A stretch of 64,000 nucleotides of DNA, from the NCBI RefSeq assembly GCF_003933745.1, contig NZ_RSEB01000002.1, positions 186,001-250,000 on the forward strand, written 5' to 3'. This document shows positions 53,488 to 64,000 of this stretch, one piece after another (the first letter of the stretch is position 1; each line of letters opens with the position of its first letter). Source of the stretch: Glycomyces terrestris (GTDB lineage: Bacteria > Actinomycetota > Actinomycetes > Mycobacteriales > Micromonosporaceae). The notes below the pieces were generated by a model. It saw only the letters and a list, made by a program, of their open reading frames with translations. It did not search any database and had not been told where the DNA came from. The translations under genes were made by a program, and so were the position numbers.

Positions 53488-53560
53488 TTGACAATTCCGC
53501 ACCGATGGCGCTCATCTCAGCGAACCCGCTGGGCAGTTCCTGTGTAGTAGCTGTTAGAGT
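53488..53560 (+). promoter_or_regulatory. Candidate promoter elements of the atp operon
   Basis: A consensus TTGACA lies at 53488-53493, but no good -10 is found 17 bp later (CTCATC). TAGAGT at 53555-53560 could be a second -10 box, 10 nt before the ATG at 53571. The interval 53440-53570 otherwise shows nothing. Precise start is undecided. Confidence 0.4.
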
Positions 53561-53570
53561 TCAATCCGAC

Positions 53571-53789
53571 ATGGCCGACATGGAACCCCCCGATCGCAAA
53601 CCCCAGCCCAACGGCTCTGACATGGGCTGGCGCGCTCTGGGATATCTGCTGTCCGGGATCATCGTCTGGGGTGGTCTCGGATATCTCGTCGACCTGTGGC
53701 TCGAACTGCCCAAAGTCGGGCTCCTGGTAGGGATGCTGGTCGGTGCTGGAGCGGGGATGTACCTGCTCATCAAGCAGATGTCGCCGTAG
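53571..53789 (+). CDS. AtpZ/AtpI family small membrane protein
   Basis: The 72-residue protein has two hydrophobic segments (YLLSGIIVWGGLGYLVDLWL and VGLLVGMLVGAGAGMYLLI) with the GYxxDxWL-like pattern of AtpZ proteins. The start at 53571 (MADMEPPD) is preferred over an in-frame ATG at 53505, which would add 22 residues without a conserved match. It sits 26 bp before atpB. Confidence 0.8.
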   Translation: MADMEPPDRKPQPNGSDMGWRALGYLLSGIIVWGGLGYLVDLWLELPKVGLLVGMLVGAGAGMYLLIKQMSP

Positions 53790-53814
53790 ATTTGACCGAC
53801 ACTGACTGAGAGGC

Positions 53815-54636
53815 GTGGCTCGCGTGACCGACTCAGCCATCGTGCTGGCCGAAGGGGAGTCCCACTTCCCGCCCGGTATCCACAGCTTTGACTTTGCCGA
53901 CTGGTTCTCCGGGCTCACCGGCACCGCGCTCGCCCACATGTTCACCACCATCACCATGGCGGTCTGGGCGACCGTCGCGATCCTCATCGTCTTCTTCCTG
54001 TGGGCCTACCGCAAGCCCCAGATCGTCCCCACCAAGAAGCAGTGGCTCGCCGAATCGGCCTACGGCTTCATCCGGAACACCGTCGCCATCGACCTCATGG
54101 GCAAGAAGGACGGCGTGCGCTTCGCCCCGTACCTCGCGACGCTGTTCCTGTTCATCGTCCTCATGAACTTCTGGGCCATCGTGCCCGGCGTCCAGATCTC
54201 GCCGAACGCGCACATCGCGTTCCCGGCGATGCTGGCGGTCCTGTCCTGGATCATGTACGTCTGGGTCGGCATCAAGCAGCACGGCCTGGTGAAGTGGCTC
54301 AAGATCACCGTGGTGCCGCCGGGCGCCCCGGCCTTCGTCCTGCCGCTGCTGATCCCGATCGAGATCCTCCAGAACATCATCCTGCGGCCGGTCACCCTCG
54401 CCCTGCGGCTGTTCGCGAACATGTTCGCCGGCCACCTCATCCTGCTGGTCTTCATCCTCGGCGGGTTCGAGATGCTCAACTCGAGCAACTTCTTCATCCA
54501 GGGCCTGTCGGTCTTCTCGTTCGCCATGGGCATCGCGATGACGCTCTTCGAGCTCATCGTCATCCTGCTCCAGGCGTACGTGTTCACCCTGCTGACCGGC
54601 ATGTACATCCAGGGGTCCCTCGCCGAGGAGCACTAG
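53815..54636 (+). CDS. atpB: ATP synthase subunit a
   Basis: The 273-residue polytopic protein has the essential Arg in LRPVTLALRLFANMFAGH, GVQISPNAHIAFPAM, and FELIVILLQAYVFTLLTGMYI. It forms the proton half-channels beside the c-ring. GTG at 53815 or 53824 are both possible starts. First core gene of the atp operon. Confidence 0.96.
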   Translation: MARVTDSAIVLAEGESHFPPGIHSFDFADWFSGLTGTALAHMFTTITMAVWATVAILIVFFLWAYRKPQIVPTKKQWLAESAYGFIRNTVAIDLMGKKDGVRFAPYLATLFLFIVLMNFWAIVPGVQISPNAHIAFPAMLAVLSWIMYVWVGIKQHGLVKWLKITVVPPGAPAFVLPLLIPIEILQNIILRPVTLALRLFANMFAGHLILLVFILGGFEMLNSSNFFIQGLSVFSFAMGIAMTLFELIVILLQAYVFTLLTGMYIQGSLAEEH

Positions 54637-54731
54637 TCCTCGCCGGCTTCCACCCCCACCCACAGATTTCGCAATTGAACAACATCGTGCGCGTGACGGA
54701 CACGCCACGCTGAAACCTAGGAGAAAACGCC

Positions 54732-54935
54732 ATGGAAGGCTCTGTCAGCGTCATCGGTTACGGTCTCGCCGCGATCGGCCCCGGTATCGGTGTGGCTCTC
54801 ATCTTCGCCGCGTGGATCACCGCGACCGCGCGTCAGCCCGAGTCGGCCGGCATCACCCGTCCGATGCTGTTCATGGGCTTCGCCCTCGTCGAGGTTCTGG
54901 CCCTGTTCGGCCTGGTCCTCGCGTTCATCAACTAG
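54732..54935 (+). CDS. atpE: ATP synthase subunit c
   Basis: The 67-residue two-helix hairpin protein has a Gly-rich first helix (GYGLAAIGPGIGVALIFAAW), polar loop ARQPE (Arg34, Gln35, Pro36) and second helix with the proton-carrying Glu54 (GFALVEVLALFG). It is slightly shorter at the N-terminus than mycobacterial AtpE. There is no Na-type Gln/Ser motif, so it is proton-specific. Confidence 0.96.
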   Translation: MEGSVSVIGYGLAAIGPGIGVALIFAAWITATARQPESAGITRPMLFMGFALVEVLALFGLVLAFIN

Positions 54936-54955
54936 CCACCACACACGGAGCGAAC

Positions 54956-55501
54956 ATGATTCTCGCCGCCGAAGAAGGAGGCACCGGCATCCTCTTCCCG
55001 ATCTGGCAGGAGATGCTGATCGGGGCCATCGCCTTCGGTCTGCTCTGCTTCGTGCTCATCAAGTTCGTCTTCCCCCGCATGGAGAAGACGTTCGAAGCAC
55101 GGGTCGACGCGATCGAGGGCGGCATCGAGCGCGCCGAGCGCGCTCAGGAAGAGGCCAACCAGACGCTCGAGGAGTACCGCCGGAAGCTCGCCACCGCGCA
55201 GGAGGAGGCCGCGGCGATCCGCGACGAGGCCCGCGCGACCGCCGAGGCCAGCAAGGAGGAGATCCTCGTCTCCGCCCGCGAAGAGGCCAACCGCATCATC
55301 GCGGCCGGTCACGCCCAGGCCGAGGCCTCGCGCCAGCAGCTCATCCGCGAGCTGCGCAGCGAGGTCGGCCACCTGGCGGTCGACCTGGCCGGGAAGATCA
55401 TCGGCCAGCGCCTCGCCGGCGACGCCGACACGACCGCGACCGTCGACCGGTTCCTGGCCGAGATCGTGGACGAGACGGCTGAGACGAGCGGAGCACGCTG
55501 A
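54956..55501 (+). CDS. atpF: ATP synthase subunit b
   Basis: The 181-residue protein has one N-terminal membrane helix (about 18-38, LIGAIAFGLLCFVLIKFVF), then a long Ala/Glu/Arg coiled coil that forms the peripheral stalk. ATG at 54956 with CGGAGCG upstream; a longer frame upstream overlaps atpE and is rejected. Overlaps atpH by one base. Confidence 0.95.
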   Translation: MILAAEEGGTGILFPIWQEMLIGAIAFGLLCFVLIKFVFPRMEKTFEARVDAIEGGIERAERAQEEANQTLEEYRRKLATAQEEAAAIRDEARATAEASKEEILVSAREEANRIIAAGHAQAEASRQQLIRELRSEVGHLAVDLAGKIIGQRLAGDADTTATVDRFLAEIVDETAETSGAR

Positions 55502-56316
55502 TGTCGACGACTGGACGCGAAAGCATCGAGGCCGGCCGGGCCGTGCTGGAGGCACTGGACGCCTCCGCCGAGCAGTTCACCGAGTGCGGCGATCAGCTGC
55601 TGCAGGTAACGAGGTTCCTCGTCGACCAGCCTCGGCTGCGTCGCGCCCTGTCCGACCCCGCCCGCAAGGCGGACGACCGGGAGGGCCTGATCCGTCAGCT
55701 CCTCGCCGGTCAAGTCGGCGACACCGCCGCTGACGTGGTGGCCGCGCTGGTGCGCGGCCGCTGGGGCACCCCGTCCGAACTCATGGACGGCACCGAGCAG
55801 CTCGCCGTCGAGGCGCTGCTGCTCGCCGCCGCCAAGGACGGCAGCCTGGCGAACGTCGAAGACGAGCTGTTCCGCTTCGGGCGGCTCGTCGACGGCGACG
55901 CCGAGCTGGCCTCGGTCCTCGGCGCCTCCGGCACCGACCCCAAGGGCCGCGCCTCGCTGACCGAGCAGTTGCTCGCCGGCAAGGCCGAACCCGTGACGGT
56001 GAAGCTCGCGACCGCCGCATGCTTCGGCATCGGCGGGCGCAGCTTCCACGCCTCACTGGCCCACCTGGTCGAGGTCGCCGCGGCGGCCCGCGACGAGTCC
56101 GTGGCCTACGTGACCGTGGCCCAGCCGCTCGACGAGAACGGCGAGCGCCAGCTCGGCGCCAAGCTCTCGCTCGTGTACGGCCGCCCGGTGGCGCTCAAGG
56201 TCACCGTCGACCCCGCGATCGTCGGGGGCATCCGGGTGCAAGTCGGCTCGGACCTGTGGGACGGCACCGTCTCGCGTCGCCTCGACGAAGCCCGCCAAGC
56301 CTTGGCCGGACGCTGA
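55501..56316 (+). CDS. atpH: ATP synthase subunit delta
   Basis: The 271-residue protein is the long actinobacterial delta form (usual bacterial length about 180). It has an N-terminal helical bundle and the conserved C-terminal [38 protein letters not shown] in parts. It links the peripheral stalk to the top of F1. One-base overlap with atpF (TGATG). Confidence 0.94.
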
Positions 56317-56350
56317 TCCAGCCGGTAGAAACAGAAAGGGAAACGTTCAG

Positions 56351-57985
56351 ATGGCTGAATTGACCATCTCCTCTGACGAGATCCGCAGCGCGCTCGACGC
56401 CTACGTCTCGTCGTACCGGCCGGAGATCACCCGCGAAGAGGTCGGTACCGTCATGAGCGCCGGCGACGGCATCGCGATCGTCGAGGGCCTGCCCTCCGTC
56501 ATGGCCAACGAGCTCCTGGAGTTCGAGGGCGGCGTGATGGGCCTGGCCCTGAACCTCGACGTGCGCGAGATCGGCGTCGTCCTCCTCGGCGACCCGACCA
56601 AGGTCGGCGAGGGCCAGCCCGTCAAGCGGACCGGCAAGGTCCTCTCGGTGCCGGTCGGCGACAAGTTCCTCGGCCGCGTCGTCGACGCGCTGGGCAACCC
56701 GATCGACGACCTCGGCGAGATCGAGGCCGAGACCGAGCGGGAGCTCGAGGCCCAGGCCCCGAACGTCATCAACCGCCAGTCGGTGTTCGAGCCGGTCGAG
56801 ACCGGCATCAAGGCCATCGACTCGATGACCCCCATCGGCCGCGGCCAGCGCCAGCTGATCATCGGCGACCGCAAGACCGGCAAGACGCAGGTCGCGATCG
56901 ACACGATCATCAACCAGCGCGCCAACTGGGAGTCCGGCGACCCGAACAAGCAGCTGCGCTGCATCTACGTCGCGGTCGGCCAGAAGGGCTCCACCGTCGC
57001 GGGCATCAAGGGCATGCTCGAAGAGCACGGCGCGATGGAGTACACCACCATCGTCGCGGCGAACGCCGACGAGCCGGCGGGCCTGAAGTACCTGGCCCCC
57101 TACACCGGTTCGGCCATCGGCCAGCACTGGATGTACGGCGGCAAGCACGTCCTCATCGTCTTCGACGACCTGTCGAAGCAGGCCGAGGCCTACCGCACCG
57201 TGTCGCTGCTGCTGCGCCGTCCCCCGGGCCGCGAGGCCTTCCCCGGTGACGTCTTCTACCTGCACTCCCGCCTGCTGGAGCGCTGCGCGAAGCTGTCGGA
57301 CGAGCTGGGCGGCGGTTCGCTGACCGGCCTGCCGATCATCGAGACCAAGGCCGGCGACATCTCGCAGTTCATCCCGACCAACGTCATCTCGATCACCGAC
57401 GGCCAGGTCTTCCTCGAAGAGGGCCTGTTCAACTCCGGTGTGCGCCCGGCCATCAACGTCGGCACCTCGGTCTCCCGAGTCGGCGGCGCGGCCCAGACCA
57501 AGGGCATGCGCTCCGTCGCCGGCTCGCTGCGTCTGGACCTGGCCCAGTACCGCGACCTGGAGGCCTTCGCGGCCTTCGCGTCGGACCTGGACGCCGCGTC
57601 GAAGGCCCAGCTGGACCGCGGTCTGCGCCTGGTCGAGCTCCTCAAGCAGGGCGTGGCCGAGCCGTTCCCGATGGGCGAGGAGACCATCTCGATCTGGATG
57701 GGCACCTCCGGCGAGCTCGACGACATCCCCGTCGGCGAGGTCCGCCGCTTCGAGCACGAGTTCCTCACCTACATGCGCGCCAACCACAAGGACGTCGTCG
57801 CGCAGCTGACGGTGGGCAAGGACAAGGTCGCCGGCGACGTCGAGGACACCCTCAAGCGCGCCGTCGCCAAGTTCAAGCAGATGTTCAAGGCCACCGCCGA
57901 CGACCTTCACGTGACCGACGCCGCCGAGGACGCCCTGGAGGGCGACGTCGACGTCGAGACCGTCAAGCGCGTCAAGAAGGGTTAG
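56351..57985 (+). CDS. atpA: ATP synthase subunit alpha
   Basis: The 544-residue protein has [13 protein letters not shown], Walker A GDRKTGKT at about 172-179, [14 protein letters not shown] and the alpha arginine-finger region [34 protein letters not shown] in parts. The C-terminus has about 30 extra acidic residues ([18 protein letters not shown]), as in mycobacteria, where an alpha C-terminal extension suppresses ATP hydrolysis. Confidence 0.97.
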
Positions 57986-57987
57986 CC

Positions 57988-60356
<2,369 letters not shown>

Positions 60357-60378
60357 CCCTAGCTTGCAGCGCTTGACG

Positions 60379-60416
60379 AGGGCGGCCCCGGAACCGCGAG
60401 GTTCCGGGGCCGCCCT
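60379..60416 (+). terminator. Terminator after atpD
   Basis: A perfect 17-bp stem (60379-60395 with 60400-60416) with a GCGA (GNRA) loop is followed by TCCGTCTT. It lies 22 bp after atpD, ending the operon without atpC. Confidence 0.9.
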
Positions 60417-60505
60417 TCCGTCTTCGGCACACGAGAGAACCTTGCGGATGCCGTCAATGTTTTATAACGAAGTCGGCGTGTCGCTGGTCTCACTGCCGCA
60501 CGTTG

Positions 60506-60518
60506 TGCGATTATCGCA
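60506..60518. promoter_or_regulatory. Operator/promoter of the ImmA/IrrE-PIN module
   Basis: TGCGAT-T-ATCGCA is a perfect inverted repeat around one base, extended by GTTG/CAAC on the flanks with one bulge. Within it GATTAT (60509-60514) ends 6 nt before the ATG at 60521, so it is also the leaderless -10 box. The HTH protein encoded directly downstream probably binds here and represses its own operon. Confidence 0.65.
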
Positions 60519-60520
60519 AC

Positions 60521-61618
60521 ATGAAGCTTGAGAAGGAGTGGAAGGCCGTCGGTGAGCGGGTCAGGCGCGCCCGCGTCGCCGAAGGCTTGTCGCAGCTCGA
60601 ACTCGCCCAACGTATAGGTGTGGACGACCGAACCGTGATCTCGAAGATCGAGCTTGGCGATCGCCGAATCGACGGCATCGAGCTGGTGCAGTTGGCTCAG
60701 GTGCTGCGGGTTCCTCTCGACCAGTTCATATTCGACCCTCCTCCTGTCATATCGCGTCGCAGTGGTCTGGTCGCCGAAGAGACCACGGAAGCTGAACGTT
60801 CCATGTTCAGAGTGCAGACCGCATTGGTTGCTTGGCTGAGGGATGTGGAGCAGCTGGTCGACACCGGCCTTCTCGATATCCCCGAGCTGATCCCGTATAA
60901 GGGACCGAAAGGCACGCCCTCGGAAGCCAGAGCCGCCGCGCGTCACTTGCGCCATATCCTTAGGATCGGTGAGAATCCGACTGGCAGCCTGATGACCGTG
61001 TCGGAGCGTATCGGCGTCCTTCTCGCTGTCGTGGAGCTTGAAGGCGACGGTGCCAGCGTCGTCAACGGTGACTACGCCGTTGCGGTCGTGAACTTGAAAC
61101 AGGATTTCGGTCGCCGCCGATCGACGGCCGCGCACGAGCTCGGGCATGTCTTTCTGGGTGACGAGTACTCGAGCGAGATCGCGGTGCATGCTTCCCGAGA
61201 CCAGCGTGAAGCGGTCATTGATGCTTTCGCTTCGGAATTTCTGCTGCCTTCTGCGGTCCTCCGGCCGCACCACGGCAGATTGACGCGGTCGACGCTCATT
61301 AGCATCGCCGCGCGTTATCAGGTGTCGTGGAGCTTGGCCATCAGGCAGGCCGAGTTGGCCGGATGCGTTGAAGAATCGGTGGCGCGCGAATGGGGCGCAA
61401 AGCGGCCAACGCGTGCCGAGTTCCTCGACTCTCTTGGATGGGCGCCGCAACCGGACCTTGAACGTATGCGGATTACGCCACTGTTGGCGCATGCGGTGAT
61501 GGCTGCGTACGAAGCTCGGCTCATTACCGCGGACCGTGCGGTCGAAATCATGAGGGGACAGATCGACGGGCCCGAGGACCTGCCACAGGTCGAGGTGCCT
61601 CGGGAGATGATGTGGTAG
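60521..61618 (+). CDS. HTH XRE - ImmA/IrrE metallopeptidase fusion
   Basis: The 365-residue protein begins with an XRE-type HTH (residues about 10-68, RVRRARVAEGLSQLELAQRIGVDDRTVISKIELGDRRID in parts). After a helical linker it has an ImmA/IrrE zinc peptidase domain with AAHELGHVFLGDE (HExxH; His-Glu-His) near 205 and the downstream DAFASEFLLPSAVL with the third ligand Glu. Such proteins act as phage repressor-cleaving proteases, stress regulators or antitoxins. Composition is clearly less GC-rich than the neighbours. The ATG at 60521 is chosen over GTG 60503 because of the leaderless -10. The pair with the next gene (7-bp overlap) suggests a toxin-antitoxin or defence module. Confidence 0.88.
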   Translation: MKLEKEWKAVGERVRRARVAEGLSQLELAQRIGVDDRTVISKIELGDRRIDGIELVQLAQVLRVPLDQFIFDPPPVISRRSGLVAEETTEAERSMFRVQTALVAWLRDVEQLVDTGLLDIPELIPYKGPKGTPSEARAAARHLRHILRIGENPTGSLMTVSERIGVLLAVVELEGDGASVVNGDYAVAVVNLKQDFGRRRSTAAHELGHVFLGDEYSSEIAVHASRDQREAVIDAFASEFLLPSAVLRPHHGRLTRSTLISIAARYQVSWSLAIRQAELAGCVEESVAREWGAKRPTRAEFLDSLGWAPQPDLERMRITPLLAHAVMAAYEARLITADRAVEIMRGQIDGPEDLPQVEVPREMMW

Positions 61619-62172
61619 CGCCGAATGAGGAGGCGTTGGTCTTCGATACCACCTGTCTTTCAGCATTCGCCCTCGCAGATCGCATTGACGTTCTGGGGAA
61701 TCTGCTCGTGGGACGCCGCTGTTTGACCACCACCGTCGTATTGAATGAGCTTCAGCGCGGCGTGCCTGATCGCCCTGAGCTGCTGGCGGTCGGTGAGCAG
61801 GAGTGGCTTATCGCCGAAGCGATCGACGGTTTCGAGCGAGTTATCGAATTCGTCAGGTGGGCGAAGCGCATGGGCGGCAATCCTGATCGAAACCACGGTG
61901 AAGCGAGTGTCATGGTCATCGCAGAGGAACTCGGCGCTACCGCGATCATCGACGACAGGGCGGCCAAGCAGGTCGCGGCTGAACACTATCCGCGTGTCCA
62001 CGGGACTCTCTGGCTTCTCAGCGAGCTTCAGTACAGCGGCAAGATGACTGAGGCTGAAGCGTGTGCCATGGTCGATATGCTTGTGGGAACAGGCATGCGA
62101 CTTCCATGCAGCGGCAGTGGCTTTCCGGCGTTTGCCAAACAACTTCGGCTCGGAGACCGGTCACGGAAGTGA
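61612..62172 (+). CDS. PIN-domain-like protein (DUF3368/DUF4411-type)
   Basis: The 186-residue protein has the PIN acidic pattern: LVFDTTCLSAFALADR (Asp near residue 11), VLNELQRG (Glu), NHGEASVMVIAEELGATAIIDD (Glu and Asp-Asp) and AAKQVAAEHYPRVHGTLWLLSEL. PIN domains are metal-dependent RNases, often toxins. GTG at 61612 overlaps the previous stop by 7 bp. GC content is low for the window (33 of 60 bases in 61621-61680 are G or C). With the ImmA/IrrE partner this is a predicted TA-like pair. Its stop is 14 bp from the convergent glycosyltransferase. Confidence 0.82.
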   Translation: MVAPNEEALVFDTTCLSAFALADRIDVLGNLLVGRRCLTTTVVLNELQRGVPDRPELLAVGEQEWLIAEAIDGFERVIEFVRWAKRMGGNPDRNHGEASVMVIAEELGATAIIDDRAAKQVAAEHYPRVHGTLWLLSELQYSGKMTEAEACAMVDMLVGTGMRLPCSGSGFPAFAKQLRLGDRSRK

Positions 62173-62186
62173 TGTCGACGCTGTCG

Positions 62187-63116
62187 TCAGATGCCCCGGC
62201 CGCGGCGGTGGAGGGCCGCCATCACCGCGGGCACGCCGACGATGCCGGCCGCGGCGGCGGCCGCGACGGCCGCGCGCGGCTCGCCCGGGTTCGCCTTCGT
62301 GGCCCGCAGCGCCCACCGCAGGGCCTCCTTGCGGTCGCCGATCGCCGCGTGCCAGCACGCGATCTGCCCGTAGACGCGCGCGGCGCCCTCGGGGCTGCCG
62401 TGGATCTCCGGGTGGCGGTCGAGGATCCACCGCAGCGAGGAGATCTTAGTGTCCCAGCGGGTCTCGAAATGCGACCCGGCCCAGTTCACCAGCGCGTACG
62501 GGACGTCGACGTGCGCGATCGGCCGGCGCCGGGAGGCCCGCAGGAGCATGTCCCAGTCCTCGTTCTGGCTGCCGGGCGCGTCCTCCGCGACGAGCCCGAG
62601 CCCGCCCAGGAGCGCCGAGCGCCGGAACAGGAACGTCGAGGAGTGGAGCATCATCATCCGCGACCTGAGCAGGTCGACGTGGCGGACCGTCGACCTCTGC
62701 GCCAGCCGCGCGTTCCGCCGCCCGCGGTAGTCGACCTCGATCGCGGTGGTGCACAGCTCGGCCTCGGTGCCCAGGGCCGCGACCTGCGCGGTGAGCTTCC
62801 CCGGGAGCCACTCGTCGTCGTCGTCCAGGAACGCGACCAGATCGGTCTCCAGCGCCGTGATCCCGGTGTTGCGGGCCCCGGCCAGGCCGGGCGTGCGCTC
62901 GTTCCTGACGACGCGCACCGGCCGCTTCGACGCCTCGCCGGAGCCGCCGTTGAGCTCCTCCTCGAGGCCCGGGGCCGGCTTGGCCCGGTCGAAGACCACG
63001 ATGACCTCGAGCTCGCCGGGGTAGAACTGCGTCAGCACCGACCGGAGGGCGGCGCGCATCTGCTGGGGGCGGTCGTGCGTCGGGATCACGACCCCGACGG
63101 AGGGCCAGTCAGTCAC
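62187..63116 (-). CDS. Family 2 glycosyltransferase
   Basis: The 309-residue protein has the GT-A fold: VGVVIPTHDRPQQMRAALRSVL, TPGLAGARNTGITAL, the metal-binding VAFLDDDDEWLPGKL, and NEDWDMLLRASRR (the ED acceptor-binding motif). No membrane helix is evident. The C-terminal 60 residues are Ala/Arg-rich with a short TPR-like stretch (ACWHAAIGDRKEALRWALRATKANPGEP in parts). GTG start at 63116 overlaps the upstream sulfotransferase by 8 bp. It probably adds a sugar to a cell-surface glycan or natural product. Confidence 0.9.
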   Translation of the reverse strand: MTDWPSVGVVIPTHDRPQQMRAALRSVLTQFYPGELEVIVVFDRAKPAPGLEEELNGGSGEASKRPVRVVRNERTPGLAGARNTGITALETDLVAFLDDDDEWLPGKLTAQVAALGTEAELCTTAIEVDYRGRRNARLAQRSTVRHVDLLRSRMMMLHSSTFLFRRSALLGGLGLVAEDAPGSQNEDWDMLLRASRRRPIAHVDVPYALVNWAGSHFETRWDTKISSLRWILDRHPEIHGSPEGAARVYGQIACWHAAIGDRKEALRWALRATKANPGEPRAAVAAAAAAGIVGVPAVMAALHRRGRGI

Positions 63117-64000
63117 GGGCGCTCACCTCTTCACGCGCTGGCTCTTCCAAGGGTGCCTCGTCCTCGGCGAGGTAACCGTAGCGTCCCAGGAGCGGGCGCG
63201 TGAGCGTCGAGACCATCCGGCGGGTGCCGTCGGGGAGGTCCTCGGTCCACGCCTCGTCCGGGAAGATCGGGATGCGCCCCACGGTGAACCGCATCGGGTT
63301 CCCGGCCGCCGAGTGGCTCGGGCCGAGGTCGGCCCAGCCCTCGCCGATGTAGTTCAGGTCCGACTCGACCAGGTCGAGCCCGCAGAACCGGGCCAGGGAC
63401 GCGATGACGCGCCGCGGGCGCTGGATGATCCGCTCGTACCGGACCCGCCGCACCGGGACCCCGCGGCGAGCCAGGAGGCTGAACGCGGCGTTCTGCGCGT
63501 TCCACAGCATCGCGGCCTTCGCGGGGGAGTAGCGCGTCATCTGGTCGCCCGTGGGCGACTCGGGGCGGCGCACCTGCTTCGTCCACGAGTACGCGACGCC
63601 GCGCGAGTCGCGCACGACGTGCATGACCCGCAGGTCGATCCGGGGGGACCAGCGCAGGCAGTACGCGAGCGACGCGTGCTTCGAGGAGTCGACGACGACC
63701 TGCGCGCGCGTGTCCTTCGCGGCCGCCAGGTAGATGTTCTCGAAGTACTCGACGTACTCGGTGACGAGCTCGTGCTGCGCGGGCGCGAGCTTCCTCGCGG
63801 CGAGCGCCGGGATGTGCCGGGTGCGGTCCACGGTGGCCTTCAGGGCGTTCAGCCGCTCGACGTCCACGTTGTCCCAGGACCCGAACGCGCGCTCGCCGAT
63901 CCGCTGCCAGAACTCGCAGTGCGAGAACGTGGCCCCGCACGCGCACATCTCGTTGCCGACCAGGTCCCGTTCCCACAGGTGGGTGATCTCGCCGAGCGGG
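63109..64000 (-). CDS. Sulfotransferase family protein (5' end outside window)
   Basis: The frame stays open to the window end on the minus strand, so the true start lies beyond 64000. The visible part includes GEITHLWERDL, ENxMCACG-type Cys cluster (MCACGATFSHCEFW), VVVDSSKH (PAPS binding), VMHVVRDSRGVAYSWTKQ (3'-phosphate binding) and VRRVRYERI. The pattern fits bacterial PAPS-dependent carbohydrate sulfotransferases. It is cotranscribed with the GT2 gene, suggesting a sulfated glycan or glycolipid. PAPS supply links it to cysDN and cysQ elsewhere in the window. Confidence 0.88.
   Translation of the reverse strand, partial: PLGEITHLWERDLVGNEMCACGATFSHCEFWQRIGERAFGSWDNVDVERLNALKATVDRTRHIPALAARKLAPAQHELVTEYVEYFENIYLAAAKDTRAQVVVDSSKHASLAYCLRWSPRIDLRVMHVVRDSRGVAYSWTKQVRRPESPTGDQMTRYSPAKAAMLWNAQNAAFSLLARRGVPVRRVRYERIIQRPRRVIASLARFCGLDLVESDLNYIGEGWADLGPSHSAAGNPMRFTVGRIPIFPDEAWTEDLPDGTRRMVSTLTRPLLGRYGYLAEDEAPLEEPAREEVSARD

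Follow-up and report, generated by a model that had tools for sequence, protein, structure and literature searches.

The ATP synthase genes of Glycomyces terrestris raise the question of what has become of atpC, the gene for the ε subunit, and of what the two genes that stand behind atpD have to do with its absence from that place. The stretch of 64,000 nucleotides that was analysed (the window) holds the other ATP synthase genes, and an original prediction made from it allowed that ε is encoded elsewhere, that a module inserted at atpD displaced its gene, or that the enzyme lacks ε. Taken as a whole, the explanation that is very likely to be correct is that atpD and atpC have been split apart, that a short ε is encoded separately, and that an ImmA–PIN module came later into a variable slot behind atpD.

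The atp Cluster and the Separate atpC Gene

The atp cluster spans positions 53505–60356 and has the order atpI-like, a, c, b, δ, α, γ, β in the open reading frames (Table 1). Profiles were run for the atpI-like protein and for subunits a, α, γ, and β; subunits c, b, and δ were named by position or sequence. No atpC follows atpD, as predicted, and the predicted 17-bp terminator has a perfect stem, followed by the HTH-ImmA and PIN-like genes. Folding of positions 60357–60430 gave a minimum free energy of −51 kcal/mol (z −5.6), and GC-rich hairpins were also seen by eye after atpD in sibling intervals (imperfect in L190). The lower GC content claimed for the two genes was likewise found (61.4% for HTH-ImmA and 59.5% for the PIN-like gene, vs. 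67.2% for atpD, 74.3% for the GT2 gene, and 70.8% for the window).

Table 1. Features of the window from the atp cluster to the right border of the variable site (positions are those of the window).
Feature	Position	Strand	Basis
atpI-like small membrane protein, opens atp cluster	53505..53789	+	PF09527 25.0 bits (cut-off 26.6), E 2e-5
atpB, subunit a	53815..54636	+	PF00119 E 5.7e-58
atpE, subunit c	54732..54935	+	67-aa ORF; name from position and sequence
atpF, subunit b	54956..55501	+	ORF 54812-55501, start inferred inside; name from position and sequence
atpH, subunit δ, 271 aa	55501..56316	+	ORF; name from position
atpA, subunit α, 544 aa, C-terminal extension	56351..57985	+	TIGR00962 765 bits, match ends at residue 512
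atpG, subunit γ, acidic loop	57988..58926	+	PF00231 E 4.2e-94; alignment to 6foc/7jg5
atpD, subunit β, closes atp cluster	58929..60356	+	PF00006 E 1e-69
Intrinsic terminator 3′ of atpD	60379..60416	+	perfect 17-bp inverted repeat, 60379-60395/60400-60416, 4-base loop
13-bp palindrome TGCGATTATCGCA, probable operator of HTH-ImmA gene	60506..60518	.	ends two bases before ATG at 60521
HTH-ImmA/IrrE (Xre + Peptidase_M78), RmrA-like probable antitoxin	60521..61618	+	PF06114 E 2.6e-12, PF01381 E 2e-11
PIN-like probable toxin, 7-base overlap with ImmA gene	61612..62172	+	PADLOC PDC-S70 E 9.8e-13
GT2 glycosyltransferase, convergent, right border of variable site	62187..63116	-	PF00535 E 1e-22
Sulfotransferase-like gene, conserved border, runs off window	63109..63999	-	PF00685 E 3.9e-7

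A PF02823 profile search of the whole genome (G000; 5.24 Mb in 15 contigs, 99.46% complete) found a single atpC, on contig C9 (match at C9:106823-107065, E 6e-22), and no atpC inside the window, which lies on contig C8. The gene (G000:C9:106811-107092) starts with GTG behind AAGGAG and is flanked upstream by the gene for a Crp-type regulator (cNMP_binding and HTH_Crp_2; crp) and downstream by a DUF2550 gene (Pfam). Its 93-amino-acid product contains the N-terminal β-sandwich of PF02823 (E 9.5e-23), and the atpC genes of 21 other genomes of the genus have 77–96% identity to it. The possibility that ε is encoded elsewhere is thus borne out. An enzyme without ε, for which nothing speaks beyond the absence of atpC from the window, is virtually excluded by this intact gene with its ribosome-binding site and by the conservation of atpC in the 21 other genomes.

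In all 22 genomes of the genus, the interval between crp and atpC contains the motif TAGA[CA]TTCC, 39–45 bases upstream of the atpC start; it was seen by eye first and counted afterwards, with a chance expectation of a mean of 0.011 matches per mononucleotide-shuffled set of 22. The promoter-like motif TAGACTTCC precedes atpC, and a GC-rich hairpin was seen by eye behind crp in the printed crp–atpC intervals, so that hairpin and motif can be read as a crp terminator followed by a putative atpC promoter. It is conceivable, if rather improbable, that a stand-alone supply of ε acts as a control on ATP synthase, with a promoter of its own beside crp and with ε dosage tuning F1–Fo coupling, replacing the lost C-terminal switch. 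Whether production of ε has to keep pace with that of the other subunits is a question for which the Glycomycetaceae provide a natural experiment.

Linkage of atpD and atpC among Relatives

The gene order at atpD in relatives agrees with that of the window: atpC is absent from this place in all 22 genomes of the genus and present in each of them, always on a contig other than that of atpG. The nearest named relatives are four Glycomyces (L062–L064 and L070; AtpD identity 92–97%). All 29 genomes examined from the clade of Glycomyces, Stackebrandtia, and genomes G033 and G034 have atpC and atpD unlinked. The atpD-side genes and atpC are unlinked in G025, G033, and G034 though on one contig each; the γ gene and atpC are 533 kb apart in Stackebrandtia G090 (single contig, 6,841,557 bases) and 378 kb apart on one contig in Stackebrandtia G125; and G109 and G138 have the two genes, atpD and atpC, on separate contigs (for G109 as judged from contig numbers alone). 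Genomes G023 and G026, in which the genome search gave no atpC match, were left out of the linkage counts. The two genes are linked in all 10 other genomes of the family in which both were located, with atpC 74–1534 bp behind atpD. An assembly artefact was considered as the cause of the split and rejected, given that 21 of the 22 genomes of the genus share the GT2–sulfotransferase flank and all 22 the crp–DUF2550 flank, and that the split is seen also in G090, whose genome is a single contig.

An ε match is present in the same stretch as atpD in 73 of 80 named loci. The remaining seven comprise four Glycomyces, one Stackebrandtia, one metagenome-assembled genome with 529 bases of contig left after atpD, and a Lentzea (L127), which was viewed over 10 kb and has no atpC within that distance of atpD. 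In three further Lentzea loci (L123, L128, L130), atpC lies 6.4–7.0 kb downstream of atpD, and Lentzea is another lineage with an opened atpD–atpC junction. Family-wide searches for γ and atpC each covered 220 genomes and gave matches in 216 and 218, respectively; from these, only the genomes of the genus Stackebrandtia and G063 were taken, and the searches give no linkage frequency. In G063, of the same family, atpC is inverted relative to atpD, lying on the opposite strand at a distance of about 9 kb. Genome G090 also contains two further adjacent ATPase α/β-like frames with 29–30% identity to AtpD (G090:C1:3661707-3664162), perhaps belonging to a V/A-type ATPase.

In a tree of AtpA, AtpG, and AtpD (43 rows, 39 of them different; quick method), the 14 unlinked rows, from 12 genomes, form one clade (SH-aLRT 99), and its sister, Actinorhabdospora, is still linked, with a gap of 774 bp. 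As all unlinked rows fall in one clade, a single ancestral event is indicated. The right side of atpC in linked loci mostly has DUF2550 and a PduO-type adenosyltransferase, and in nearer relatives mostly a hydroxyacyl-CoA dehydrogenase (HBD) too (PduO and HBD were named from sequence); all three still follow atpC in Stackebrandtia, G033, and G034. DUF2550 adjoins atpC wherever the flank was read, including all 22 genomes of the genus, where Crp stands on the other side. PduO is present in one of four Glycomyces loci viewed, about 4.5 kb away, and HBD in none of the four, and PhoD is often next after DUF2550. Because DUF2550, and in Stackebrandtia, G033, and G034 also PduO and HBD, stayed with atpC, the chromosome was cut between atpD and atpC and the gene did not hop alone; this break probably happened once.

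The left neighbor of atpC differs, being marP–crp in Glycomyces, G033, and G034 and a histidine phosphatase in Stackebrandtia (marP and the phosphatase were named from sequence), and to explain this, the chromosome must have been rearranged or broken a second time. The atpD–atpC junction is soft in the order, with LCP-like genes and gaps of up to 7 kb. Both this softness, to which the inverted atpC of G063 may be added, and the differing left junctions would suit two unlinkings, one in Stackebrandtia and one in Glycomyces and its near kin; as one clade holds all split rows and a single change suffices, such a double origin is unlikely, and a single ancestral cut between atpD and atpC would account for the tree.

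An LCP query matches 28 of the 80 named loci, and in each of them the match lies between atpD and atpC; it also matches another 12 Micromonosporaceae loci, six of which are short stretches around atpC. LCP insertion was considered as a half-way stage of the split and rejected, as the query has no match in the Glycomycetaceae loci or in the sister Actinorhabdospora (L067, L170); it is therefore probably a separate event. Most Micromonosporaceae loci measured have a single LCP-like gene between atpD and atpC; a tandem pair is present at L072:11834-14334 and L079:11809-14418.

The Variable Slot behind atpD and the ImmA–PIN Module

In the genus, 21 of 22 genomes have the GT2 gene at a distance of 73 bp to 6.2 kb downstream of atpD (in G020 the contig ends first), and the sulfotransferase-like gene adjoins GT2 in as many. 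Of these 21 complete intervals, four are empty (73, 73, 73, and 116 bp; L178, L181, L192, and L195), six contain ImmA–PIN, three of them with other genes besides, and 11 contain other genes only; occupied intervals measure 1.8–6.2 kb. In representatives, the other cargo includes a response regulator, histidine kinase, VTC, DUF4956, and acyltransferase (Pfam). The interval between atpD and the GT2 gene is a variable slot, which the module occupies without having caused the split. The proposed displacement or destruction of atpC by insertion of the module does have in its favor that the element sits exactly at the expected place of atpC and is lower in GC, but atpC is equally missing there from the four empty siblings and the 11 genomes with other cargo; Stackebrandtia, G033, and G034 are split and yet have no ImmA or PIN match in the stretches behind atpD; and atpC kept its right neighbor DUF2550 where the flank was read. 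Displacement by the module is hence highly improbable.

Two Glycomyces have a Phd/YefM antitoxin and PIN pair in the atpD–GT2 slot (L185:8667-9429 and L197:7855-8608), so that, besides ImmA–PIN, a second, different toxin–antitoxin type uses the site. In L183, the hairpin sequence of the atpD terminator is present on both sides of the ImmA–PIN module, a possible sign that repeated hairpins have recombined.

The HTH-ImmA protein matches PADLOC RmrA (E 4e-25) and contains an HELGH motif in its translation. Searched against plasmids, it gave 19 records, all under 60% identity, with 30% in the top-ranked row. Its PIN-like partner has no Pfam match over cut-off and no match to phages or to PADLOC RmrT; only PDC-S70 models match, and they do so in seven of seven PIN-like homologues (PADLOC). 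Residues D12, E46, E97, D114, and D115, which we take to be the PIN site, are invariant in all seven. A PDB profile search with the seven homologues gave no match at E up to 1, and an AlphaFold model of the protein from its single sequence had a pLDDT of 41. The label "PIN" rests on PADLOC, on weak DUF3368 similarity of relatives (below the Pfam cut-off), and on the conserved residues. The palindrome TGCGATTATCGCA is perfect in four of the six loci with the pair (the window included) and imperfect in two, and its position before the ImmA start codon fits an autoregulated pair. The module looks like a putative RosmerTA-related toxin–antitoxin cassette. For ImmA-protease antitoxins, a range of toxin partners is described, PIN-like domains among them (PMC10440598).

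Close PIN homologues occur in seven of 22 genomes of the genus, each behind atpD: the window, five other full pairs, and G020, in which the PIN gene is cut off by the contig end. G019 has a 27% PIN match elsewhere in its genome, and a different contig of G020 has a second, partial match that is perhaps the remainder of the truncated gene. Between the six full pairs, the ImmA and PIN proteins are 46–74% identical; GT2, sulfotransferase, AtpG, and AtpD are 89–98% identical. The pair may be ancestral at the site, evolving fast and often lost, rather than repeatedly acquired. All seven genomes with a close homologue have it behind atpD, whereas a free cassette should turn up at other loci as well, and the possible identity of the two partial matches in G020 points the same way; against this stand the divergence of the pair between such similar flanks and the presence of the same slot, empty or with unrelated cargo, elsewhere. 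An ancestral pair is a real possibility with somewhat less than an even chance. Repeated acquisition or replacement after the split is preferred, by which the module would be an autoregulated RosmerTA-like cassette without bearing on ATP synthase, and the slot would be a place where toxin–antitoxin-like pairs come and go between very conserved flanks.

Short ε, α Extension, and Comparison with Known Systems

AtpC ends eight residues after its PF02823 match; the C-terminal helical hairpin is absent, and no other Pfam domain was found in the protein at E up to 10. ε is 92–93 amino acids long in 22 of 22 members of the genus, no more than 97 in the remaining Micromonosporaceae loci measured, and about 120–135 in mycobacterial, Pseudonocardiaceae, and Geodermatophilaceae loci. 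Short ε is not confined to Micromonosporaceae: G055 and G040, of another family of the order, have 92 and 99 amino acids, and in a class-wide sample (the best-scoring 30 loci of 118 genomes searched, which is not a frequency estimate) eight of 30 ε proteins are under 105 amino acids, only one of these (L013) from Micromonosporaceae. Since AtpC matches NF009977 over its cut-off (97.8 bits; cut-off 80) and the short form is common to the family, the missing hairpin does not exclude its identity as AtpC.

The extended α C-terminus and acidic γ loop noted in the original prediction are real, and alignment shows both to be common to mycobacterial structures. The α extension comprises about 30 residues (query 1–540 aligns to 7jg5 1–540), and the γ loop of the window protein is also present in 6foc and 7jg5. 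We assume that 6foc and 8j0s are structures of mycobacterial F-ATP synthase. By length and end sequence, the α extension is present in most relatives with a readable α gene; rows of 484–493 amino acids labeled AtpA are β matches in stretches without a full α gene and were left out of statements on α. Short or altered α ends were found in Micromonospora pattaloongensis (L068, 531 amino acids), Actinoplanes sp. DH11 (L094, 522), and G046 (517). L068 and L094 combine this altered or missing extension with a short ε and, by sequence, could be without both known inhibitory elements, sequencing or assembly errors being possible.

In mycobacteria, from which the structure 7jg5 comes (M. smegmatis), latent hydrolysis is due mainly to the α extension (PMC8698299), and truncated ε of alphaproteobacteria is described as non-inhibitory (PMC9317440). 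By analogy, it is plausible that ATP hydrolysis in Glycomyces is held by α, not by ε. The short ε would still build the central stalk and couple γ to the c-ring but would be unable to perform the helix-up inhibition of ATP hydrolysis, and latency would rest on the C-terminal extension of α, as reported for mycobacteria. The earlier suggestion that inhibition relies on α and γ is compatible with a helix-less ε of 93 amino acids; what does not stand is that it would be special to this site or this genome, because, in the loci measured, the whole family shares the short ε and most of the order the α extension. The Glycomycetaceae would be a test of how far the α extension can replace the ε switch.

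Both split atp operons and short ε are already known, the latter to annotators as NF009977. Every Glycomycetaceae genome examined gave up the β–ε junction, and Glycomyces has a helix-less ε behind a separate promoter-like motif; searches of the open-access literature gave no record of ε alone being unlinked in Glycomycetaceae and, for Glycomyces, nothing on a split-off atpC or a short ε. The ImmA–PIN module resembles RosmerTA (RmrA with a varying RmrT; PMC10440598) in having an HTH-ImmA protein beside a small toxin-like gene, and differs in that the putative toxin of Glycomyces matches PDC-S70 and not RmrT. The ε protein itself is like that of NF009977/PRK13442 (a 102-position model), and only the location of its gene in Glycomyces is unusual. 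Split atp operons described in PMC5709465, where 78.6% of Actinobacteria have standard units, are alike in that the enzyme still assembles from genes spread over two or more transcription units; the split patterns that are named keep ε and β together, and the arrangement of Glycomycetaceae, with ε alone split off, is not among them. Mycobacterial F-ATP synthase (7jg5; 8j0s, 6foc) shares the C-terminal extension of α and the γ loop, but its ε has about 120 residues, compared with 93 in Glycomyces, and in 12 mycobacterial loci atpC lies 39–101 bp after atpD, whereas the atpC of Glycomyces is unlinked.
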